From IMG/VR virus record IMGVR_UViG_3300028298_000032, positions 1 to 24,340 of that record: a DNA stretch of 24,340 bases; one strand, written 5' to 3'. The notes below the pieces were generated by a model, which searched no databases, was not told the DNA's origin, and saw only the letters and a program-made list of their open reading frames with translations. How positions within the stretch are numbered: position 1 is the stretch's first letter; each line of letters starts with the position of its first letter. Shown piece by piece: positions 1,986-24,340 of this stretch. This DNA is from a virus. Made by a program: the position numbers and the translations under genes.

Positions 1986-2363
1986 ATGAAGCATCCGGAA
2001 GATGACCTATTAATGGCGGCGGTGTACTGGTTTGAATTACAGTATCCGCTACTGAAACACAAACTACACCATTCGCCAAACGAAGGCCAAAGGTCAATGA
2101 AGCGTAACTCCAACGGCGTATATTATTCACCAGAAGCCAGTAGATTAAAAAAGAAAGGCACAAAAGCGGGTTTTCCTGATCTCGAATTATTGCATCCTGC
2201 AAAAGGTTTTCACGGATTATTTGCAGAAGCGAAAGCTGGTAAGGGAAAGCTAAAACAAGAACAGGCCGACTGGTTGCAACAACTTTCAGAGGATAATTAT
2301 TTTACGTTTGTCTTTCGTTCACTTGATGAGTTCATTAAAATCGTAACGAATTATCTAAGATAA
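1986..2363 (+). CDS. VRR-NUC domain nuclease
   Basis: A 125-aa single-domain protein of the VRR-NUC branch of the PD-(D/E)XK nucleases. Visible motifs are an N-terminal acidic helix (HPEDDLLMAAVYWF), a GTKAGFPDLEL segment with the catalytic aspartate at about residue 65, and the E-x-K pair of the active site in FAEAKAGKG (E81, K83), followed by the helix KLKQEQADWLQQL. Stand-alone VRR-NUC proteins in phages are thought to cut branched or flap DNA during replication and recombination. The start is two bases after the SSB-like gene and the stop overlaps the next methyltransferase start by one base (TAATG), so the three genes are likely co-translated. Confidence 0.85.
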   Translation: MKHPEDDLLMAAVYWFELQYPLLKHKLHHSPNEGQRSMKRNSNGVYYSPEASRLKKKGTKAGFPDLELLHPAKGFHGLFAEAKAGKGKLKQEQADWLQQLSEDNYFTFVFRSLDEFIKIVTNYLR

Positions 2364-3157
2364 TGGAACTTAATAAAATATACTGCGAAAACTGTTTAGA
2401 TACCATGTCGAGGATGCCGGATGGGTTTATTGACTTAACGGTAACATCTCCGCCATACGATAATTTGAGGGATTACAAAGGTTATTCGTTTCCATTTCAA
2501 GACATTGCAAAAGAACTTTTTAGAGTAACAAAACAAGGTGGTGTGGTTGTGTGGGTGGTTGGAGATGCAATGATAAACAGGAGTGAAACGGGAACTTCAT
2601 TTAAACAAGCATTGTATTTTATGGAGTGTGGGTTTAAGCTGCATGATACGATGATTTATGAAAAGAACGGGTGTGCTATGCCTACTAATGTAAGATACTT
2701 AGCATCATTTGAATATATGTTTGTTTTTAGCAAAGAAACTCCAATATCATTTAATCCAATTATTGACAGAAAAAACAGATTTACTGAAAGATGGGGAAAG
2801 GGAAGGGTTGTTCGTAAACAAGACGGCACGCTATCGCCTAGAGGTAATTATAAAGCAAACGAATACGGAATGAGGTTTAATGTTTGGAGATATAATAATG
2901 GGTTTGGTTATGGGTCGAAAGATGAAATCACATTTCAACACCCAGCCACATTTCCAGAACAACTTGCAGCAGACCACATCTATTCATGGAGCAACGAAGG
3001 TGATTTAATTTACGATCCTTTCATGGGAAGTGGAACAACTGCTAAAATGGCACATATTTTAAAACGCAACTGGATCGGTAGTGAGATAAGTAAGGAATAT
3101 GTTGATCTGGCAAACAAGAGAATTGATCCTTATTTGAAACAAACCACACTCTTTTAA
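2363..3157 (+). CDS. DNA methyltransferase, beta class, TSPPY type (MTase 2)
   Basis: A 264-aa DNA methyltransferase. Motif IV is TSPPY at residues 28-32 and motif I is DPFMGSGTT at about 218-226, again the beta order. A long central insert (about residues 95-185, including NVWRYNNGFGYG) would be the target-recognition region. TSPPY occurs in both N4-cytosine and N6-adenine enzymes, so the methylated base cannot be assigned. The final residues KQTTLF resemble a sliding-clamp-binding motif at the extreme C-terminus, as in MTase 1. The start codon overlaps the stop of the VRR-NUC gene by one base. No restriction enzyme is adjacent. It is not a close copy of MTase 1; only the N-terminal MELNKIY/MLELNKLY and the core motifs correspond. 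Confidence 0.87.
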   Translation: MELNKIYCENCLDTMSRMPDGFIDLTVTSPPYDNLRDYKGYSFPFQDIAKELFRVTKQGGVVVWVVGDAMINRSETGTSFKQALYFMECGFKLHDTMIYEKNGCAMPTNVRYLASFEYMFVFSKETPISFNPIIDRKNRFTERWGKGRVVRKQDGTLSPRGNYKANEYGMRFNVWRYNNGFGYGSKDEITFQHPATFPEQLAADHIYSWSNEGDLIYDPFMGSGTTAKMAHILKRNWIGSEISKEYVDLANKRIDPYLKQTTLF

Positions 3158-3611: not shown

Positions 3612-3866
3612 ATGCCAAAAAAGAAACCACAACTATCAAAACAGGCGATCGGTGGGATCTCATTCTCACCATACTGTGAATTTACGATGAAGCTTCGGGG
3701 CTTCGACATTATAGAACGAGCGACAGATCGAAAGCTGATGAAGGTTGCTGTCTGGGACCGACACAAAAACAGCGCACGAATGACTGACAGGATTAAAAAG
3801 CGTTTGGCTCCTGGGTATCTGTTTGTCCCTCACGACAGGATGAAACGTAAAACAGTGAAGACATGA
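3612..3866 (+). CDS. Small basic hypothetical protein
   Basis: An 84-aa, strongly basic protein. I choose ATG 3612, directly after the stop of the preceding gene at 3609, rather than an upstream in-frame start at 3480 that would bury most of that gene. It opens MPKKKPQLSKQ and ends KRKTVKT, with a hydrophobic/aromatic middle (SFSPYCEFTMKLRGFDIIE, GYLFVPHD). The charge suggests nucleic-acid contact but no motif is recognisable. Its stop overlaps the next start (ATGA), tying it to the DnaA-domain gene. Confidence 0.45.
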   Translation: MPKKKPQLSKQAIGGISFSPYCEFTMKLRGFDIIERATDRKLMKVAVWDRHKNSARMTDRIKKRLAPGYLFVPHDRMKRKTVKT

Positions 3867-4297
3867 AAGAGATCAACGAAGTCATGAGCACCAATAACGA
3901 ATACTCAGACCGACGGTTATACCTTCAGATCAAATCATTCATCCAACGGGTGTATCATTATCGAAATAAGCGGTCTTTTAACTCCTTATTGTTAAGTGAT
4001 GAAGCTATTGAGGCGGCCATTGAATTGGAATACAAAATACCGATCAATAAACTCAGGACAAAATGCAGGTTAAGGAAACTGGTCGAGCCCAGGCAGGTCT
4101 GGGCAACAATGTTATACATGAATGGCGGGATGACACTGAACGAGATCGGAATAATGATTGGCAACTTTGATCATGCAACGGTGTTATATTGCATCCGGCA
4201 GGTTAAGGCGATGTACCAGACCGACAGGGCGTATCAAAAACGACTGAATAGGATACTGAATGAGTTGGATTTTTCACCTGATCAAATGAATTTTTAA
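3863..4297 (+). CDS. DnaA domain IV-like DNA-binding protein
   Basis: A 144-aa protein whose residues ~65-135 match the C-terminal, DnaA-box-binding domain IV of the bacterial initiator DnaA: a basic helix (KCRLRKLVEPRQV), the MTLNEIGIMIGNFDHATV segment that matches the DnaA signature helix-turn-helix (DHATV at 103-107), and the trailing helix. There is no AAA+ ATPase domain (no Walker A or B). The first 60 residues are a different helical region. Such a protein could bind DnaA boxes without ATPase activity, either to recruit the host initiator to phage DNA or to compete with it on the host chromosome. It is the last gene of the replication block, and its stop lies inside a tandem 10-bp repeat preceding a promoter. 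Confidence 0.8.
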   Translation: MKEINEVMSTNNEYSDRRLYLQIKSFIQRVYHYRNKRSFNSLLLSDEAIEAAIELEYKIPINKLRTKCRLRKLVEPRQVWATMLYMNGGMTLNEIGIMIGNFDHATVLYCIRQVKAMYQTDRAYQKRLNRILNELDFSPDQMNF

Positions 4298-7700: not shown

Positions 7701-8528
7701 ATGATTTACAGAGACCATTTTCAAAACTACAAACGCTATACAATTCCAAAAGCACAATTGATTATAGCTGATATTCCTTATAACTTAGGAAATAATGCCT
7801 ATGCTTCAAATCCAGCTTGGTATAAAGACGGAGACAATAGCAATGGAGAAAGTGCTTTGGCTGGTAAAAGTTTTTTTGATACCGATGAGGATTTTCGCAC
7901 TGCTGAGTTTATGCACTTTTGCTCAACTATGCTAAAACATGAAAGCAAACCTAAAAAAGTTGAAGGAGAAGCAAGGCAAAAAGGTGATGCACCTTGTATG
8001 ATTATCTTTTGTGCGTTTGACCAACAAATGTATTTGATTGAACTTGCTAAAAGATACGGATTGAATAATTATATAAACTTAGTTTTTCGTAAAAACTTTT
8101 CTGCTCAAGTGTTAAAAGCAAATATGAAAGTTGTGGGAAATTGCGAATATGGTTTGATTTTGTACCGTGATAGATTGCCAAAATTCAGAAATAATGGAAA
8201 AATGATTTTTAATTGTATGGATTGGCTGAGAGATGAAGAAAACAAAAAGATACACCCAACCCAAAAACCTATTGAATTACTTAAAAGATTAATTGAAATA
8301 TTTACAGATGAAGGAGATGTAGTAATTGACCCTTGTGCAGGAAGTGGAAGCACAATTGTCGCCGCTGAAAGATTGAATAGAAAAGGGTTTGGATTTGAGA
8401 TTAAGAAAGATTTTTGGACTAAAGCAAACCAATGGATTGAAGAAGAAAAACAAATAAAAAAGGATATTCAAGAGTTTGGATTTGCTAAAAGTCAGATGGA
8501 AAAAGGCGCACCTACGCTGTGGTCTTAA
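7701..8528 (+). CDS. DNA methyltransferase, beta class, DIPY variant (MTase 3)
   Basis: A 275-aa DNA methyltransferase. Motif IV reads ADIPYNLG (DIPY at 24-27) instead of the usual (D/N/S)PPY, HPTQKP is at 185-190 and the SAM-binding DPCAGSGST at 210-218, giving the beta order. The long stretch between residues 30 and 180 holds the target-recognition region. N6-adenine is the likely target because of the initial Asp in motif IV, but the base and site are not provable here. The gene looks A/T-richer than its neighbours, has no visible promoter, and is flanked by 10-bp inverted repeats. It lacks the clamp-motif tail of the other two methyltransferases (it ends APTLWS). Probably an independently acquired anti-restriction gene. 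Confidence 0.87.
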   Translation: MIYRDHFQNYKRYTIPKAQLIIADIPYNLGNNAYASNPAWYKDGDNSNGESALAGKSFFDTDEDFRTAEFMHFCSTMLKHESKPKKVEGEARQKGDAPCMIIFCAFDQQMYLIELAKRYGLNNYINLVFRKNFSAQVLKANMKVVGNCEYGLILYRDRLPKFRNNGKMIFNCMDWLRDEENKKIHPTQKPIELLKRLIEIFTDEGDVVIDPCAGSGSTIVAAERLNRKGFGFEIKKDFWTKANQWIEEEKQIKKDIQEFGFAKSQMEKGAPTLWS

Positions 8529-19579: not shown

Positions 19580-20205
19580 GCAATAGTCAGAAGTTACCGG
19601 GAGTAAATACAACGTTCATTAATGGTATTGAAACCAATATAAATCGGGCGGTAGTTCAGATCACAAATGCACTTGTTCACGAAGCAACGGATTATGGCAT
19701 TACTTGGTACGGGCTGACTGAGCGCAGGGCTGACAAGGACAATAATATATTTCCTGCCCTATTCCAATCAAATACAAAGGATGTAATTAACTGCATGGCT
19801 AACGATATGTGGAAAGGATATGGATTCTTTGACCTCGAAGATCCCGAAACATACAAGGCACTTGATCTAGACGAAGCCATATCAAAACATAGATACTCAC
19901 ATATAAGTCAAGGGCTAAACCTGATCATCTACGGAGACTTGAATCAGCTAGCTTTTAAACAAAGTTTAACCAACCCGGACCATCGGTATATCAAACAGCA
20001 GATCAAAGATATGGTAGTAAGGGTGCTGTCAAGAAAGATCAGAGGAGTGAGAGGATTTTTCAACCTTCAGACAATTTATTCACAACGCATCGAGGATGTG
20101 TTTAAAAGTTATTCTGTAAAAGACAAGGGAGATTATTTATATTTGCCTAAATTTGGTTTTCGGTTTGAAGGTGAACTAACCGTAACAGAACAATGCAACG
20201 AATAA
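19576..20205 (+). CDS. Putative tail terminator/completion protein
   Basis: A 209-aa protein in translational coupling with the preceding gene. It contains an Ile/Asn-rich N-terminus (NTTFINGIETNINRAVVQITNALVHE), a region with WYGLTERRADKDNNIFPALFQ, a helix (QQIKDMVVRVLSRKIRGVRGF) and a closing strand (YLPKFGFRFEGELTVTEQC) typical of proteins capping tails or joining head to tail. It overlaps the following glycosyltransferase start by 13 bases. Assignment by position and secondary-structure pattern only. Confidence 0.5.
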   Translation: MSNSQKLPGVNTTFINGIETNINRAVVQITNALVHEATDYGITWYGLTERRADKDNNIFPALFQSNTKDVINCMANDMWKGYGFFDLEDPETYKALDLDEAISKHRYSHISQGLNLIIYGDLNQLAFKQSLTNPDHRYIKQQIKDMVVRVLSRKIRGVRGFFNLQTIYSQRIEDVFKSYSVKDKGDYLYLPKFGFRFEGELTVTEQCNE

Positions 20206-21053
20206 CAGCCTGCCTGATTGTCAAAAATGAAAGCCGTGTTATTGAGCGATGTTTGAAGTCTTTGAAGGGCATCGATGAGATCGTTGTGCTGGACACCGGA
20301 TCAGAAGATTCAACCCCTGAAATATGTGTAAAGAATAAAGCCCGCGTCTATTATGACGTATGGAGGGATGACTTCTCTGAGGCGCGTAACAAGGCACTGG
20401 AATACTGCACAGGGGATTGGATTTTGTCAATCGACGCTGATGAATACCTGACCGAAGGCGCGGTCCAATACATCCGGGATTTCCTAAAGAAAAACAAGAA
20501 GCAAGTTTATTCCTGTTACGTACGTACTAATGGGACGTTGAGTGTGCAGCCTCGATTGTTTCGTCGTGACTTGAAGCGTACTTATTGGAAGGGAGCAGCG
20601 CATAACTACCTGAATCGTTCTGCTGACGGGCACTTGAATCTGGAGATTACTTCGACGAGCGAAGGATGGAGCCACAATAATGACCCGGATCGGGGCGTTC
20701 GCATACTCTCAAACTACCTGAAGAAAGAACCCAACGCATCACGGGAGATGTACTATCTGGGAAAGGAATACGCAGCCCGGTGCCAATATGAACTGGCTGT
20801 ATTTTGGTTATCGGAGGCGTGTGATATTTATCCAAACTTGCAGTCAAAGGCGGACATACATCTCAGTATCGCGAAGTGTTACATCCATCTCAAACGCTTC
20901 CGTAAAGCTATCAACTGTTTGCATGAAGCTATAAAGGTCGATCCTGATCTACGTGAAGCATACAAGCTGTTGCATCTACTGACAAAAAAGAACGTTTACG
21001 AACTTATGGCAAAGCAAGCAAAGAATACCAACGCTGTAGTTATTGATATATAA
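20193..21053 (+). CDS. GT2-type glycosyltransferase with C-terminal TPR region
   Basis: A 286-aa protein. Residues 1-115 match a GT-A family 2 glycosyltransferase: ITACLIVKNESRVIERCLKSL, the nucleotide-binding VVLDTGSEDST (32-41), the ARNKALE helix, and the metal-binding DADE (81-84). The remaining ~110 residues show repeated helix pairs with TPR spacing (MYYLGKEYAARCQYELAVFWLSEACDIYPN, HLSIAKCYIHLKRFRKAINCLHEAIKVDPD). The gene overlaps the tail-completion gene by 13 bases and shares a base with the tail chaperone start (TAATG), so it is part of the tail operon. It probably glycosylates a virion or host protein using a nucleotide sugar; the TPR may hold the acceptor. Confidence 0.85.
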   Translation: MQRITACLIVKNESRVIERCLKSLKGIDEIVVLDTGSEDSTPEICVKNKARVYYDVWRDDFSEARNKALEYCTGDWILSIDADEYLTEGAVQYIRDFLKKNKKQVYSCYVRTNGTLSVQPRLFRRDLKRTYWKGAAHNYLNRSADGHLNLEITSTSEGWSHNNDPDRGVRILSNYLKKEPNASREMYYLGKEYAARCQYELAVFWLSEACDIYPNLQSKADIHLSIAKCYIHLKRFRKAINCLHEAIKVDPDLREAYKLLHLLTKKNVYELMAKQAKNTNAVVIDI

Positions 21054-21469
21054 TGGAAACAATAACTAAAGGCAAACACAAAGTAGTCATCTACGACGAT
21101 CCTGAGTGCCTGCCGGCCGATAACTATTACAAACTGAACAAGTACCTGTTGCTGGAGGGATCGATAGGTTCATCAGTTGAGGACTTCTCGGCAAAGCACC
21201 TGAACGTATTGTACACACTTATCAACAATGATAAGAAAGCCGAAGCGATCACTCAGATCAACAACCTCAGACAGTTGTTTCATATGACCGTTAACGAGAT
21301 CAACGTGGCTCAGTTGGCTTTCGCCTGCCTGGTGCATTCAATTGACGGGGTAAAAGTTGAAGATTACTCCGAGAGCGGCCTGAAAGAAATCTCCCATCAA
21401 ATAGGAGCATTGAGTTTCACTCAAAAGGAATTAAAAAAAAAACAACTGAAGTATCGGCTCACGTCGTAA
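21053..21469 (+). CDS. Tail assembly chaperone, short (0-frame) product
   Basis: A 138-aa mostly helical protein (YNLL-type core KYLLLEGSIGSSVEDFSAKHLNVLYTLINN, AEAITQINNLRQLFHMTVNEINVAQLAFACLVH) just before the tape measure gene. It ends in a run of Lys codons over ten A residues (21433-21442) followed by QLKYRLTS and stop. Position, size and the slippery run identify the G-type chaperone whose C-terminally extended form is made by -1 frameshifting. The start shares a base with the glycosyltransferase stop. Confidence 0.75.
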   Translation: METITKGKHKVVIYDDPECLPADNYYKLNKYLLLEGSIGSSVEDFSAKHLNVLYTLINNDKKAEAITQINNLRQLFHMTVNEINVAQLAFACLVHSIDGVKVEDYSESGLKEISHQIGALSFTQKELKKKQLKYRLTS

Positions 21470-21485
21470 CACAAATTTCGATACT
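21433..21485 (+). promoter_or_regulatory. Programmed -1 frameshift site with downstream stem
   Basis: Ten A residues at 21433-21442 contain the slippery heptamer A-AAA-AAA in the 0 frame. Seven bases later, AGTATCG (21450-21456) can pair with CGATACT (21479-21485) in a 7-bp stem with a 22-base loop. The -1 frame is open from 21361 to 21801 and has no ATG or GTG start in its first 60 codons. Confidence 0.75.
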
Positions 21486-21801
21486 ATTCCCTGAAGTTTA
21501 CAGCAACATTGAAGAGAAGCAATATCAACGATACCTGAAAAAATACTGCTGGTTGATCGCACAAACCGTTATTGATGACATCCCGCGCGATGACGAGATT
21601 AAGAAACTGGAGCGTTACTTTGTTTCTCAGATCAAACCTAAAGAGTTTACGGGATCGGGAAGTGTGGAGTTAAAGATAGAGCGCGACTTCGAGAAGCTGG
21701 TCATCGTGATGGAGAAGCACACCACGCGCAACGTAAAACAAATGACAGTCAAGGAGTTTTATGCTTTGTTGAATCACATAAAAGAGACGAAACCTCAATA
21801 A
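21442..21801 (+). CDS. Tail assembly chaperone C-terminal extension made by -1 frameshift
   Basis: A 119-codon segment read in the -1 frame after slippage at 21437-21442, giving a fusion of about 249 aa with the product of 21053-21469. It contains VVTQISILFPEVYSNIEEKQYQ, YLKKYCWLIAQTVIDDIPRDDE, a strand-helix domain (SVELKIERDFEKLVIVMEKHT) and the helix QMTVKEFYALLNHIKE. Without slippage, only a TTG at 21553 could start it, and nothing resembling a ribosome site precedes it. This is the GT-type product that usually bridges to the tape measure protein and is absent from the virion. Confidence 0.75.
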   Translation, partial: TTEVSAHVVTQISILFPEVYSNIEEKQYQRYLKKYCWLIAQTVIDDIPRDDEIKKLERYFVSQIKPKEFTGSGSVELKIERDFEKLVIVMEKHTTRNVKQMTVKEFYALLNHIKETKPQ

Positions 21802-21850: not shown

Positions 21851-24340
21851 ATGCCCCCTCTGTTTCATTCAGACATAGCAGCCGTTGAAGAACTTAGAAA
21901 GTTACTTATTGAACTTACTACCACATACGAAAAGCTAATCGCAGAGGCGAAGTCAGGAATGAAAGCGTTGCAGACCGATACGCAGAACACGACGAAGGTC
22001 ACAGCTGAACACGCGACGGTAGTAAAGCAGGAAAAGGATAGATATACCGAACTTGTTGAAGCTCAAAAGAAGATCCTCAAGGCCACAGTTGATAATGAAA
22101 AGGCTGTAAACAAGGCAACCGCCGCACGTAAAAAGCAGGTTGTCGCCATACGTGAAGCCAACACGATAGCACAGCAAGAAGCCCGTACAATCGACGAGAT
22201 GCGTAAAAAGGTATCTGCACTCAATTTGCTTTGGAAGAACTCTGGCATCGGAACGAAACAACAAAAGGAACTTGCTGATCAATTAAAAAAGACCACTGCT
22301 GAACTAAAAAAACAAGAACAGGCCGTTGGTATTCATGGTCGAAACGTAGGTAACTATGCCAGTGCGATAAGTTCAGCCAGGATGAAGATAATCGGGTTTA
22401 CCGCTGCAATAGCTGGTACGATAGCTGTCATTAAAAAATGGGTTAACCTTCATTCGCAGATGTCGGATGCAATGGCTGACGTTCGCAAAACGACAGGACT
22501 AACTCAGGATGAAATTAATGGACTAAATAGCGAGCTAAAGAAATTAAACACAAGGACGGCTCAACTTGCATTGCTTGACCTTGCTTATGTAGCTGGTAAA
22601 TTAGGTGTCAAAGGAACTGAAAATGTTTTGGGGTTTGTAAGGGCGGCGGATCAAATCGGCGTTGCATTAGGCAGGGATTTAGGAAATGTCGAAGAGGCGA
22701 CTAAATCCATTGGAAAATTAGCAGAGCTTTTTAATGTCACCGGGAAGTATAGTCTGGAAGAATCAATGATCCGGGTCGGGTCTGCTATCAACTCACTGGG
22801 ACAGTCATCTACAGCAAGCGAGGCCTATATCGTTGAATTTACGAAACGACTTGGAGGTATTGCAAATCAGGCAGGTATCAGTATTCAGGACGTGCTTGGA
22901 TTTGGGAGTGCGTTAGATCAGCTTGGTCAACAAAGTGAAACATCTGGCACGGCATTATCACAACTTATTGTAAAGTTATTTCAAGACCCTGCAAAGTTTG
23001 CTAAAATAGCCGGACTGGAAGTAAGGGCGTTTGGTCATTTACTACAAACAGATGCTAATGCCGCATTGTTACAATTCATTAGCGCATTGGCAAAAAGCGA
23101 CAGTGGGCTTATTGAAATGGCGGCACAGTTTAAAGATATGGGGTTAGATGGGAGGCGCTCTATTGGGATTATAACATCGCTTGCAACAAATATAAATATT
23201 GTTGAAGATGCCCAGAGATTATCGAATGATGAATTTGAAAAAGGAACATCAATAGCAGATGAGTTTGCAATAAAAAATGAAAACCTTGCGGCAAATATCG
23301 ATAAATTAGGAAAATCGTTCACTAACTTTTTTCAAAGTAGCTGGGTAGAACGTTTCTTGACTGCGGCATCTTCAGGATTAAGTAAATCTATTGACATAAT
23401 TTCTGGAGCTGAATCAGAGGTAGATAAATTACGTAGTAAATTAGACTTCTATCGAGATATGGAGGGTGCAGACTGGGATAAAAGACGCAAAGATATACAA
23501 GATGAGATTGATTTAATTATACGGAGGGAAAAAGCGAATCAGAAATATATCGGTAGGGAAAAGATAACAGCGGAAGACTTTACTATAACAAGGCCCGATG
23601 AATCAAAGAAAAAGATTATTATTATTGAGGATGAAATAACGGATGACAAAAAAGATGAATTAAAGAAACGACAAGCCGCTGCAAAAAAACAAGCCGAAGA
23701 CGAGATAAAATTAGCGAATAAGAGGAATAAAGAGCTGTACGATTTAGCACAAAAAGAACTTGCGGATGAAGTGAAGTTGAAAGAAGACGCCTTTAAATTA
23801 AGCAAGGAACTTGGAATAGCATCATATCAGGAGGTTTATAGTTATGAACTTGAAAAGATAACTGAGAGTGCCGCTTATCGGTTATTAATTGAGGGAAAGA
23901 CGGCAATCGAAGTTGCTCGTATATGGAAAGAAGCATCTAACAAAGCGGCAAAGGCCGCACAAGGGTTTACAGTATCCGGGCTTCCAGCGCAAGCGGCGGA
24001 GTCTGATGGCCAGGGTGACTTCATGGGCACGATGTCGGCAAATATGCAAATAAATCCGGACGATGTATTACAACCGGCAACATGGGAAGAGACGTTTAAT
24101 ACAATTGCGGGTTACGCGCAAACCTTTGGGGGGATCATTACGGATGTCCTTGGCATGATCTCTGAATCGAATCAGAGACAAATGGAACAAGAGATGCAGG
24201 TCGTTGAGGATAGGTACACAAGTGAATCAGCACTATTAGATGAGCAACTCAGAAACAAAACGATTAGCGAGGTTCAGTATAATGCACGAAAAGCAGCACT
24301 GGAGCAGAAGAAACAAGCGGACGAAGCGAAGTTAAAAAAG
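21851..24340 (+). CDS. Tail tape measure protein (3' truncated by window)
   Basis: An open frame of 830 codons from ATG 21851 that runs off the window, so the total length is unknown. The N-terminal ~170 residues are a helical coiled-coil region (YEKLIAEAKSGMKALQTD, RKKQVVAIREANTIAQQEARTIDEM). A hydrophobic segment (IIGFTAAIAGTIAVI, ~178-195) follows, then a TP901-type tape measure domain: DAMADVRKTTGLTQDEI, LGVKGTENVLGFVRAADQIG, EATKSIGKLAELF, EFTKRLGGIANQAGISI. Residues ~600-690 are Lys/Glu-rich coiled coil (KKRQAAAKKQAEDEIKLANK), and a second coiled coil is starting at the window end. It sets tail length and is probably ejected with DNA. Confidence 0.9.
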   Translation, partial: MPPLFHSDIAAVEELRKLLIELTTTYEKLIAEAKSGMKALQTDTQNTTKVTAEHATVVKQEKDRYTELVEAQKKILKATVDNEKAVNKATAARKKQVVAIREANTIAQQEARTIDEMRKKVSALNLLWKNSGIGTKQQKELADQLKKTTAELKKQEQAVGIHGRNVGNYASAISSARMKIIGFTAAIAGTIAVIKKWVNLHSQMSDAMADVRKTTGLTQDEINGLNSELKKLNTRTAQLALLDLAYVAGKLGVKGTENVLGFVRAADQIGVALGRDLGNVEEATKSIGKLAELFNVTGKYSLEESMIRVGSAINSLGQSSTASEAYIVEFTKRLGGIANQAGISIQDVLGFGSALDQLGQQSETSGTALSQLIVKLFQDPAKFAKIAGLEVRAFGHLLQTDANAALLQFISALAKSDSGLIEMAAQFKDMGLDGRRSIGIITSLATNINIVEDAQRLSNDEFEKGTSIADEFAIKNENLAANIDKLGKSFTNFFQSSWVERFLTAASSGLSKSIDIISGAESEVDKLRSKLDFYRDMEGADWDKRRKDIQDEIDLIIRREKANQKYIGREKITAEDFTITRPDESKKKIIIIEDEITDDKKDELKKRQAAAKKQAEDEIKLANKRNKELYDLAQKELADEVKLKEDAFKLSKELGIASYQEVYSYELEKITESAAYRLLIEGKTAIEVARIWKEASNKAAKAAQGFTVSGLPAQAAESDGQGDFMGTMSANMQINPDDVLQPATWEETFNTIAGYAQTFGGIITDVLGMISESNQRQMEQEMQVVEDRYTSESALLDEQLRNKTISEVQYNARKAALEQKKQADEAKLKK

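Follow-up and report, generated by a model that had tools for sequence, protein, structure and literature searches.

Probable transcriptional slippage on a conserved A-run in the tail assembly chaperone genes of Bacteroidota phages

The chaperone locus

The window, that is, the whole analysed stretch of viral DNA (24,340 nucleotides), contains the following features at its right end.

21053..21469, + strand: short ORF encoding the candidate short form (gpG-like), the N half of phrog_8914 (PHROG match E=3.8e-32, profile positions 1-129 of 250)
21433..21442, + strand: run of ten A's (A10), the candidate slip site where the N and C halves meet (phase A AAA AAA AAA)
21442..21801, + strand: C half in the -1 frame, 119 codons plus stop (PHROG match E=3e-18, profile positions 128-245 of 250)
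21450..21485, + strand: stem of 7 bp with a 22-base loop, probably not functional (z -1.4; pairing lost in the relatives L002 and L004)
21851..24340, + strand: tail length tape measure protein, incomplete at the end of the window (phrog_25337, E=6.6e-57; Pfam PhageMin_Tail, E=1.3e-20)

The run is read in the 0 frame as TTA AAA AAA AAA CAA. The in-phase A_AAA_AAA near the end of the short ORF, noted in the preliminary description, is present, in two overlapping copies. The product of the short ORF has 138 aa (15.7 kDa). The -1 frame is free of stops from 21361 until the stop codon at 21799. The lack of a plausible start in this frame, also noted earlier, was borne out: only ATT codons (21409, 21430) precede the homologous domain, and the earliest ATG, GTG or TTG is a TTG at 21553, internal to the C half. 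The two frames match consecutive parts of the same family, phrog_8914, and thus together represent one protein of about 250 aa. Judging by these matches, the long form of the window is the full-length phrog_8914 protein, with a predicted length of 249 aa (28.8 kDa), the junction ...ELKKKTTEV... and a 119-codon extension. An A10 run as such is unremarkable, as 0.92 such runs per window are expected from composition alone. What is far beyond chance is the conservation of the run, described below, and the match of the -1 frame to the second half of the same family.

The gene is a tail assembly chaperone, as follows from the annotation of its relatives and from its position: it lies immediately upstream of the tape measure gene both in the window, as originally described, and in the annotated relatives. 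The chaperone reaches the cut-off of no Pfam or NCBIfam model, no significant match was found in PDB either by sequence or by fold, and the viral matches to named chaperones are only weak (E 0.26-0.46). By analogy, the short and long forms would work like gpG and gpGT of phage lambda, where the tape measure is bound by gpG and the T extension brings in the tail tube protein (PMC5009743). An in-frame relative was modelled with AlphaFold at high confidence (pLDDT 93.6). In this model the lysines encoded by the run (KKK, residues 132-134) are in the middle of the helix 121-142 between the N-terminal and C-terminal helical regions, and thus the short form would end within that helix.

The arms of the stem, AGTATCG (21450-21456) and CGATACT (21479-21485), are indeed complementary. 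However, the stimulatory role initially assigned to this stem was not supported: its folding energy does not exceed chance expectation (z of -1.4 in a 50-nt span and +1.0 in an 80-nt span), and it cannot be formed in the close relatives L002 and L004 (best fold -1.8 kcal/mol, compared to -7.2 kcal/mol in the window). It was therefore rejected as a candidate stimulator. A downstream stimulatory structure is not required at every site of the lambda type. A search against Rfam produced no match.

Several other genes of the window were noted. A family 2 glycosyltransferase with TPR repeats (phrog_13126, 20193-21053) lies between the tail genes and the chaperone; in this position several relatives have a small ORF of about 85 aa (DUF1360 in Parabacteroides phage PDS1). 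Three separate N6/N4 DNA methylase genes (Pfam N6_N4_Mtase) are found within 24 kb (849-1505, 2363-3157, 7701-8528). The protein encoded at 3863-4297 contains the DnaA C-terminal DNA-binding domain (Bac_DnaA_C) but not the ATPase part, and possibly is a replication-origin binder.

Conservation of the run in the family

A nucleotide search of phage records and a search of viral contigs with the N half as a single query produced no matches. Relatives were gathered using profile-derived patterns from the N half, not from the junction, and thus the collection was not selected for the run. The census comprised 137 distinct genes having both halves. All 137 contain 8-11 uninterrupted A's at the junction (A10 in 98 genes, A9 in 28, A11 in ten and A8 in one), so that the run is A9 or longer in 136 of 137, and AAG codons are absent throughout the run. 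At the same time, the halves are in frame in 117 genes, in the -1 relation in 18 and in the +1 relation in two. The latter are the genes of P2559S (A8) and Bacteroides phage BF8P1 (A11). The +1 members and some single -1 cases could be homopolymer sequencing errors. An additional -1 member with A10 (G294) was found in a bacterial genome.

The closest relatives of the window are four IMG/VR contigs (L002-L005) from four other metagenome sets, with 75% identity in the N half and 69% (121 residues) in the C half. The alignment of the run in close relatives, suggested in the preliminary description as a check, gave A10 in the same phase with the same -1 break in all four. The homologue in Flavobacterium phage 1/32 (KJ018210, F132_37/F132_38) also has A10 and the -1 relation, and its record already gives a joined CDS under the name tail assembly chaperone. 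The named hosts of the isolated relatives are Bacteroidota; the host of the window itself is known only through these relatives. Two homologues of the -1 type (L209, L211) come from contigs in MAGs assigned to Clostridia and Bacillota, but these contigs have the look of Bacteroidota phages or prophages that were misbinned. The run is missing from L220 (1501-2292), a very distant in-frame homologue that is a single ORF in a Bacteroidota genome. No obvious tape measure gene adjoins it, and it could be a domesticated tail-like system.

Near-identical phages of the B40-8 type differ by a single base in the run: BF8P1 (1894-1904) has A11 and B40-8 has A10. Because of the A11 run, the BF8P1 gene is annotated as two hypothetical proteins. 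The extra base may be an error of sequencing or an indel that is tolerated. A candidate A10/A11 polymorphism in F. psychrophilum phages was dropped, as the A10 run of FPSV-D22 is cut by the record end.

Mapped on a protein tree built without the junction columns, the frame arrangement changes at least ten times, with seven changes forced by well-supported branches, whereas the run is present on every tip; this is a quick tree in which some long-branch joins are unsure. The frame state of some single tips may be due to homopolymer errors, but this is unlikely for groups seen more than once (the clade of the window; the pair L144 and L146).

The length of the run is not explained by lysine codon usage. 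Elsewhere in the gene 56% of lysine codons are AAA, and thus A9 encoding KKK is expected in only about 31 of 137 genes. Long A-runs are strongly avoided in these loci except at the junction: the 598 kb of sequence contain four other A9 runs and no other runs of A10 or more, whereas the first-order model predicts about 63 runs of A9 or more and about 27 of A10 or more.

Slippage of the polymerase or of the ribosome

The two types of slippage predict different positions of the stop that ends the short product of in-frame members. With a -1 slip of the ribosome the short product would end in the -1 frame, and with the loss of one A during transcription it would end in the +1 frame. In the in-frame members the median distance from the run to the stop is one codon in the +1 frame and two codons in the -1 frame. 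A +1 stop within five codons occurs in a fraction 0.92 of 48 representatives (below 60% identity), compared to 0.68 +/- 0.06 in synonymous shuffles, none of 500 being as high. The excess persists with 27 representatives below 50% identity (P=0.004), whereas the -1 frame shows no excess of early stops over synonymous shuffles (P about 0.6-0.9). The shuffles treat the representatives as independent, and all these P values are approximate. A common in-frame form is ...AAA AAA AAA ATA GAn, where the loss of one A creates TAG immediately after the lysine codons. The excess of ATA at the codon following the run is modest (binomial p 0.006, 0.011 and 0.06 at three thresholds).

The run stays at A9 or longer whatever the frame, stops follow in the alternative frames, and no stimulator is conserved; this combination fits programmed transcriptional slippage. 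Indeed, a published criterion for purposeful slippage is that a 9A run is conserved among homologues (PMC1088944; PMC5009743). That slippage occurs at the polymerase rather than at the ribosome is suggested by features read directly from the sequences: the family spans two frames, the run is conserved independently of the frame relation, and +1 stops are selected. Thus we consider transcriptional slippage on the A-run to be the likely source of two forms of the phrog_8914 chaperone, with a probability of about 0.7. It is also probable that this holds for the whole family in Bacteroidota tailed phages, with an obligatory run of A9-A11 and a near-neutral frame relation that flips.

The proposed mechanism is as follows. 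The RNA polymerase, most likely that of the host, would slip on the conserved A9-A11 run and produce mRNAs with one A more or one A less. In the window, the short form of 138 aa would be translated from the templated A10 mRNA, and the long form of 249 aa from A11 (or A8) mRNAs. In the in-frame relatives the templated mRNA would encode the long form, and the mRNA lacking one A would contain a stop at the run or just after it, yielding the short form. If slippage supplies both forms, the frame relation in DNA is nearly neutral and can be switched repeatedly while the run is kept.

In phage lambda the short and long chaperone forms are needed in a set ratio. Unless slippage is efficient enough to balance them, the form that predominates in the in-frame members would be the minor one in the -1 members, and vice versa. 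It may be that these phages tolerate a varying ratio, or that slippage brings the two forms close to equal amounts.

Besides this question of the ratio and the possible homopolymer errors in the +1 and some single -1 members, two observations stand against transcriptional slippage. One is the distant homologue L220 that lacks the run, yet seemingly it is not before a tape measure gene. The other is A_AAA_AAA in the -1 members, which is a good site for -1 ribosomal slippage too. Programmed -1 ribosomal frameshifting, the mechanism named in the preliminary description, would act on this site as in lambda G/GT; in the in-frame relatives its product would be the short form, a situation known from E. 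coli dnaX. It is the usual mechanism at this gene position (PMC5009743). The slip site is in phase, and the -1 relation is retained in the clade of the window and in Flavobacterium phage 1/32 with its annotated join. However, such a site needs just seven A's, whereas A9 or more is kept in almost all members and AAG never occurs in the run. The run-bearing homologues have 0, -1 and +1 relations alike, the two +1 members included, and the early stops of the in-frame members are selected in the +1 frame, not in the -1 frame. As to stimulators, the stem is not conserved. An AGGA(G) motif occurs upstream of the run in the clade of the window; however, Shine-Dalgarno sequences are not recognised by ribosomes of Bacteroidia (PMC9976891), so that the usual stimulator upstream of the site is unavailable. 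Ribosomal slippage accounts for the -1 members taken by themselves, but it leaves the run length, the +1 stops and the two +1 members unexplained, and as the mechanism in this family it is unlikely.

Another possibility is that the polymerase and the ribosome both slip on the same run. Either machine can slip on a long A-run, and the data do not separate this mixture from pure transcriptional slippage. However, the comparative data are explained without ribosomal slippage, and we regard joint action as quite improbable.

The gene of the window might be a single ORF with A11, broken by a sequencing or assembly error or by decay. A11 runs with the halves in frame are indeed present in the same larger clade (L175, L176, L177, L179, L180, L206), and single-base differences do occur, as between BF8P1 and B40-8. 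On the other hand, the same A10 break is seen in the four contigs at 69-75% identity, in Flavobacterium phage 1/32 and in other lineages, which makes a sequencing error in the window very unlikely, and we give this explanation as a whole very little weight. Finally, a separate gene for the C half starting at the TTG codon (21553) is hardly credible, as 37 codons of the conserved C half precede this codon, homology is continuous across the junction, and one ORF holds both halves in 117 relatives.

Implications and comparison with known systems

Tail chaperones made in two forms are a textbook example of ribosomal frameshifting. A literature search in which subscription journals were thinly covered returned no paper describing transcriptional slippage for a tail chaperone of a phage. 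If the proposed mechanism is correct, the G/GT pair would be obtained in three ways, the two others being ribosomal frameshifting and separate genes, and selection would maintain the pair of forms rather than the ribosomal mechanism. The one-gene annotations of Bacteroides phages B40-8 and B124-14 and Parabacteroides phage PDS1 would then hide a short form. The family may serve as a natural assay of A-run handling by the RNA polymerase of Bacteroidota. It is also a warning for annotators neither to mend nor to split the chaperone gene at the run.

The arrangement resembles lambda gpG/gpGT in its position before the tape measure gene, a short form accompanied by a C-terminally extended form, and a slip site shortly before the short ORF ends. 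However, here the run is kept in the 0, -1 or +1 relation, so that the direction of the shift is not uniform, there is no conserved stimulatory element, and no sequence or fold match to G/T was found. The homologue of Flavobacterium phage 1/32 shares A10, the -1 relation and the joined CDS, but it is annotated as a single frameshift case, and the run common to the in-frame relatives is not mentioned in the record.

The in-frame members are similar to dnaX of Thermus thermophilus (A9), where transcriptional slippage produces the short form from an in-frame gene (PMC1088944, PMC5009743). In both cases a long A-run within a single ORF is accompanied by nearby stops in other frames, and short and long products are predicted from mRNAs of mixed length. 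However, here the gene is a phage tail gene, and the DNA of some members, including the window, encodes the short form. The -1 members are similar to Shigella mxiE and spa13, which are precedents for out-of-frame transcriptional slippage (PMC5009743; PMC1088944), and to Citrobacter tssM; in all of these a homopolymer run also joins a short ORF to an out-of-frame extension. These are cellular secretion genes, whereas in the phages considered here the run is a family-wide trait, and the in-frame and split arrangements interchange.
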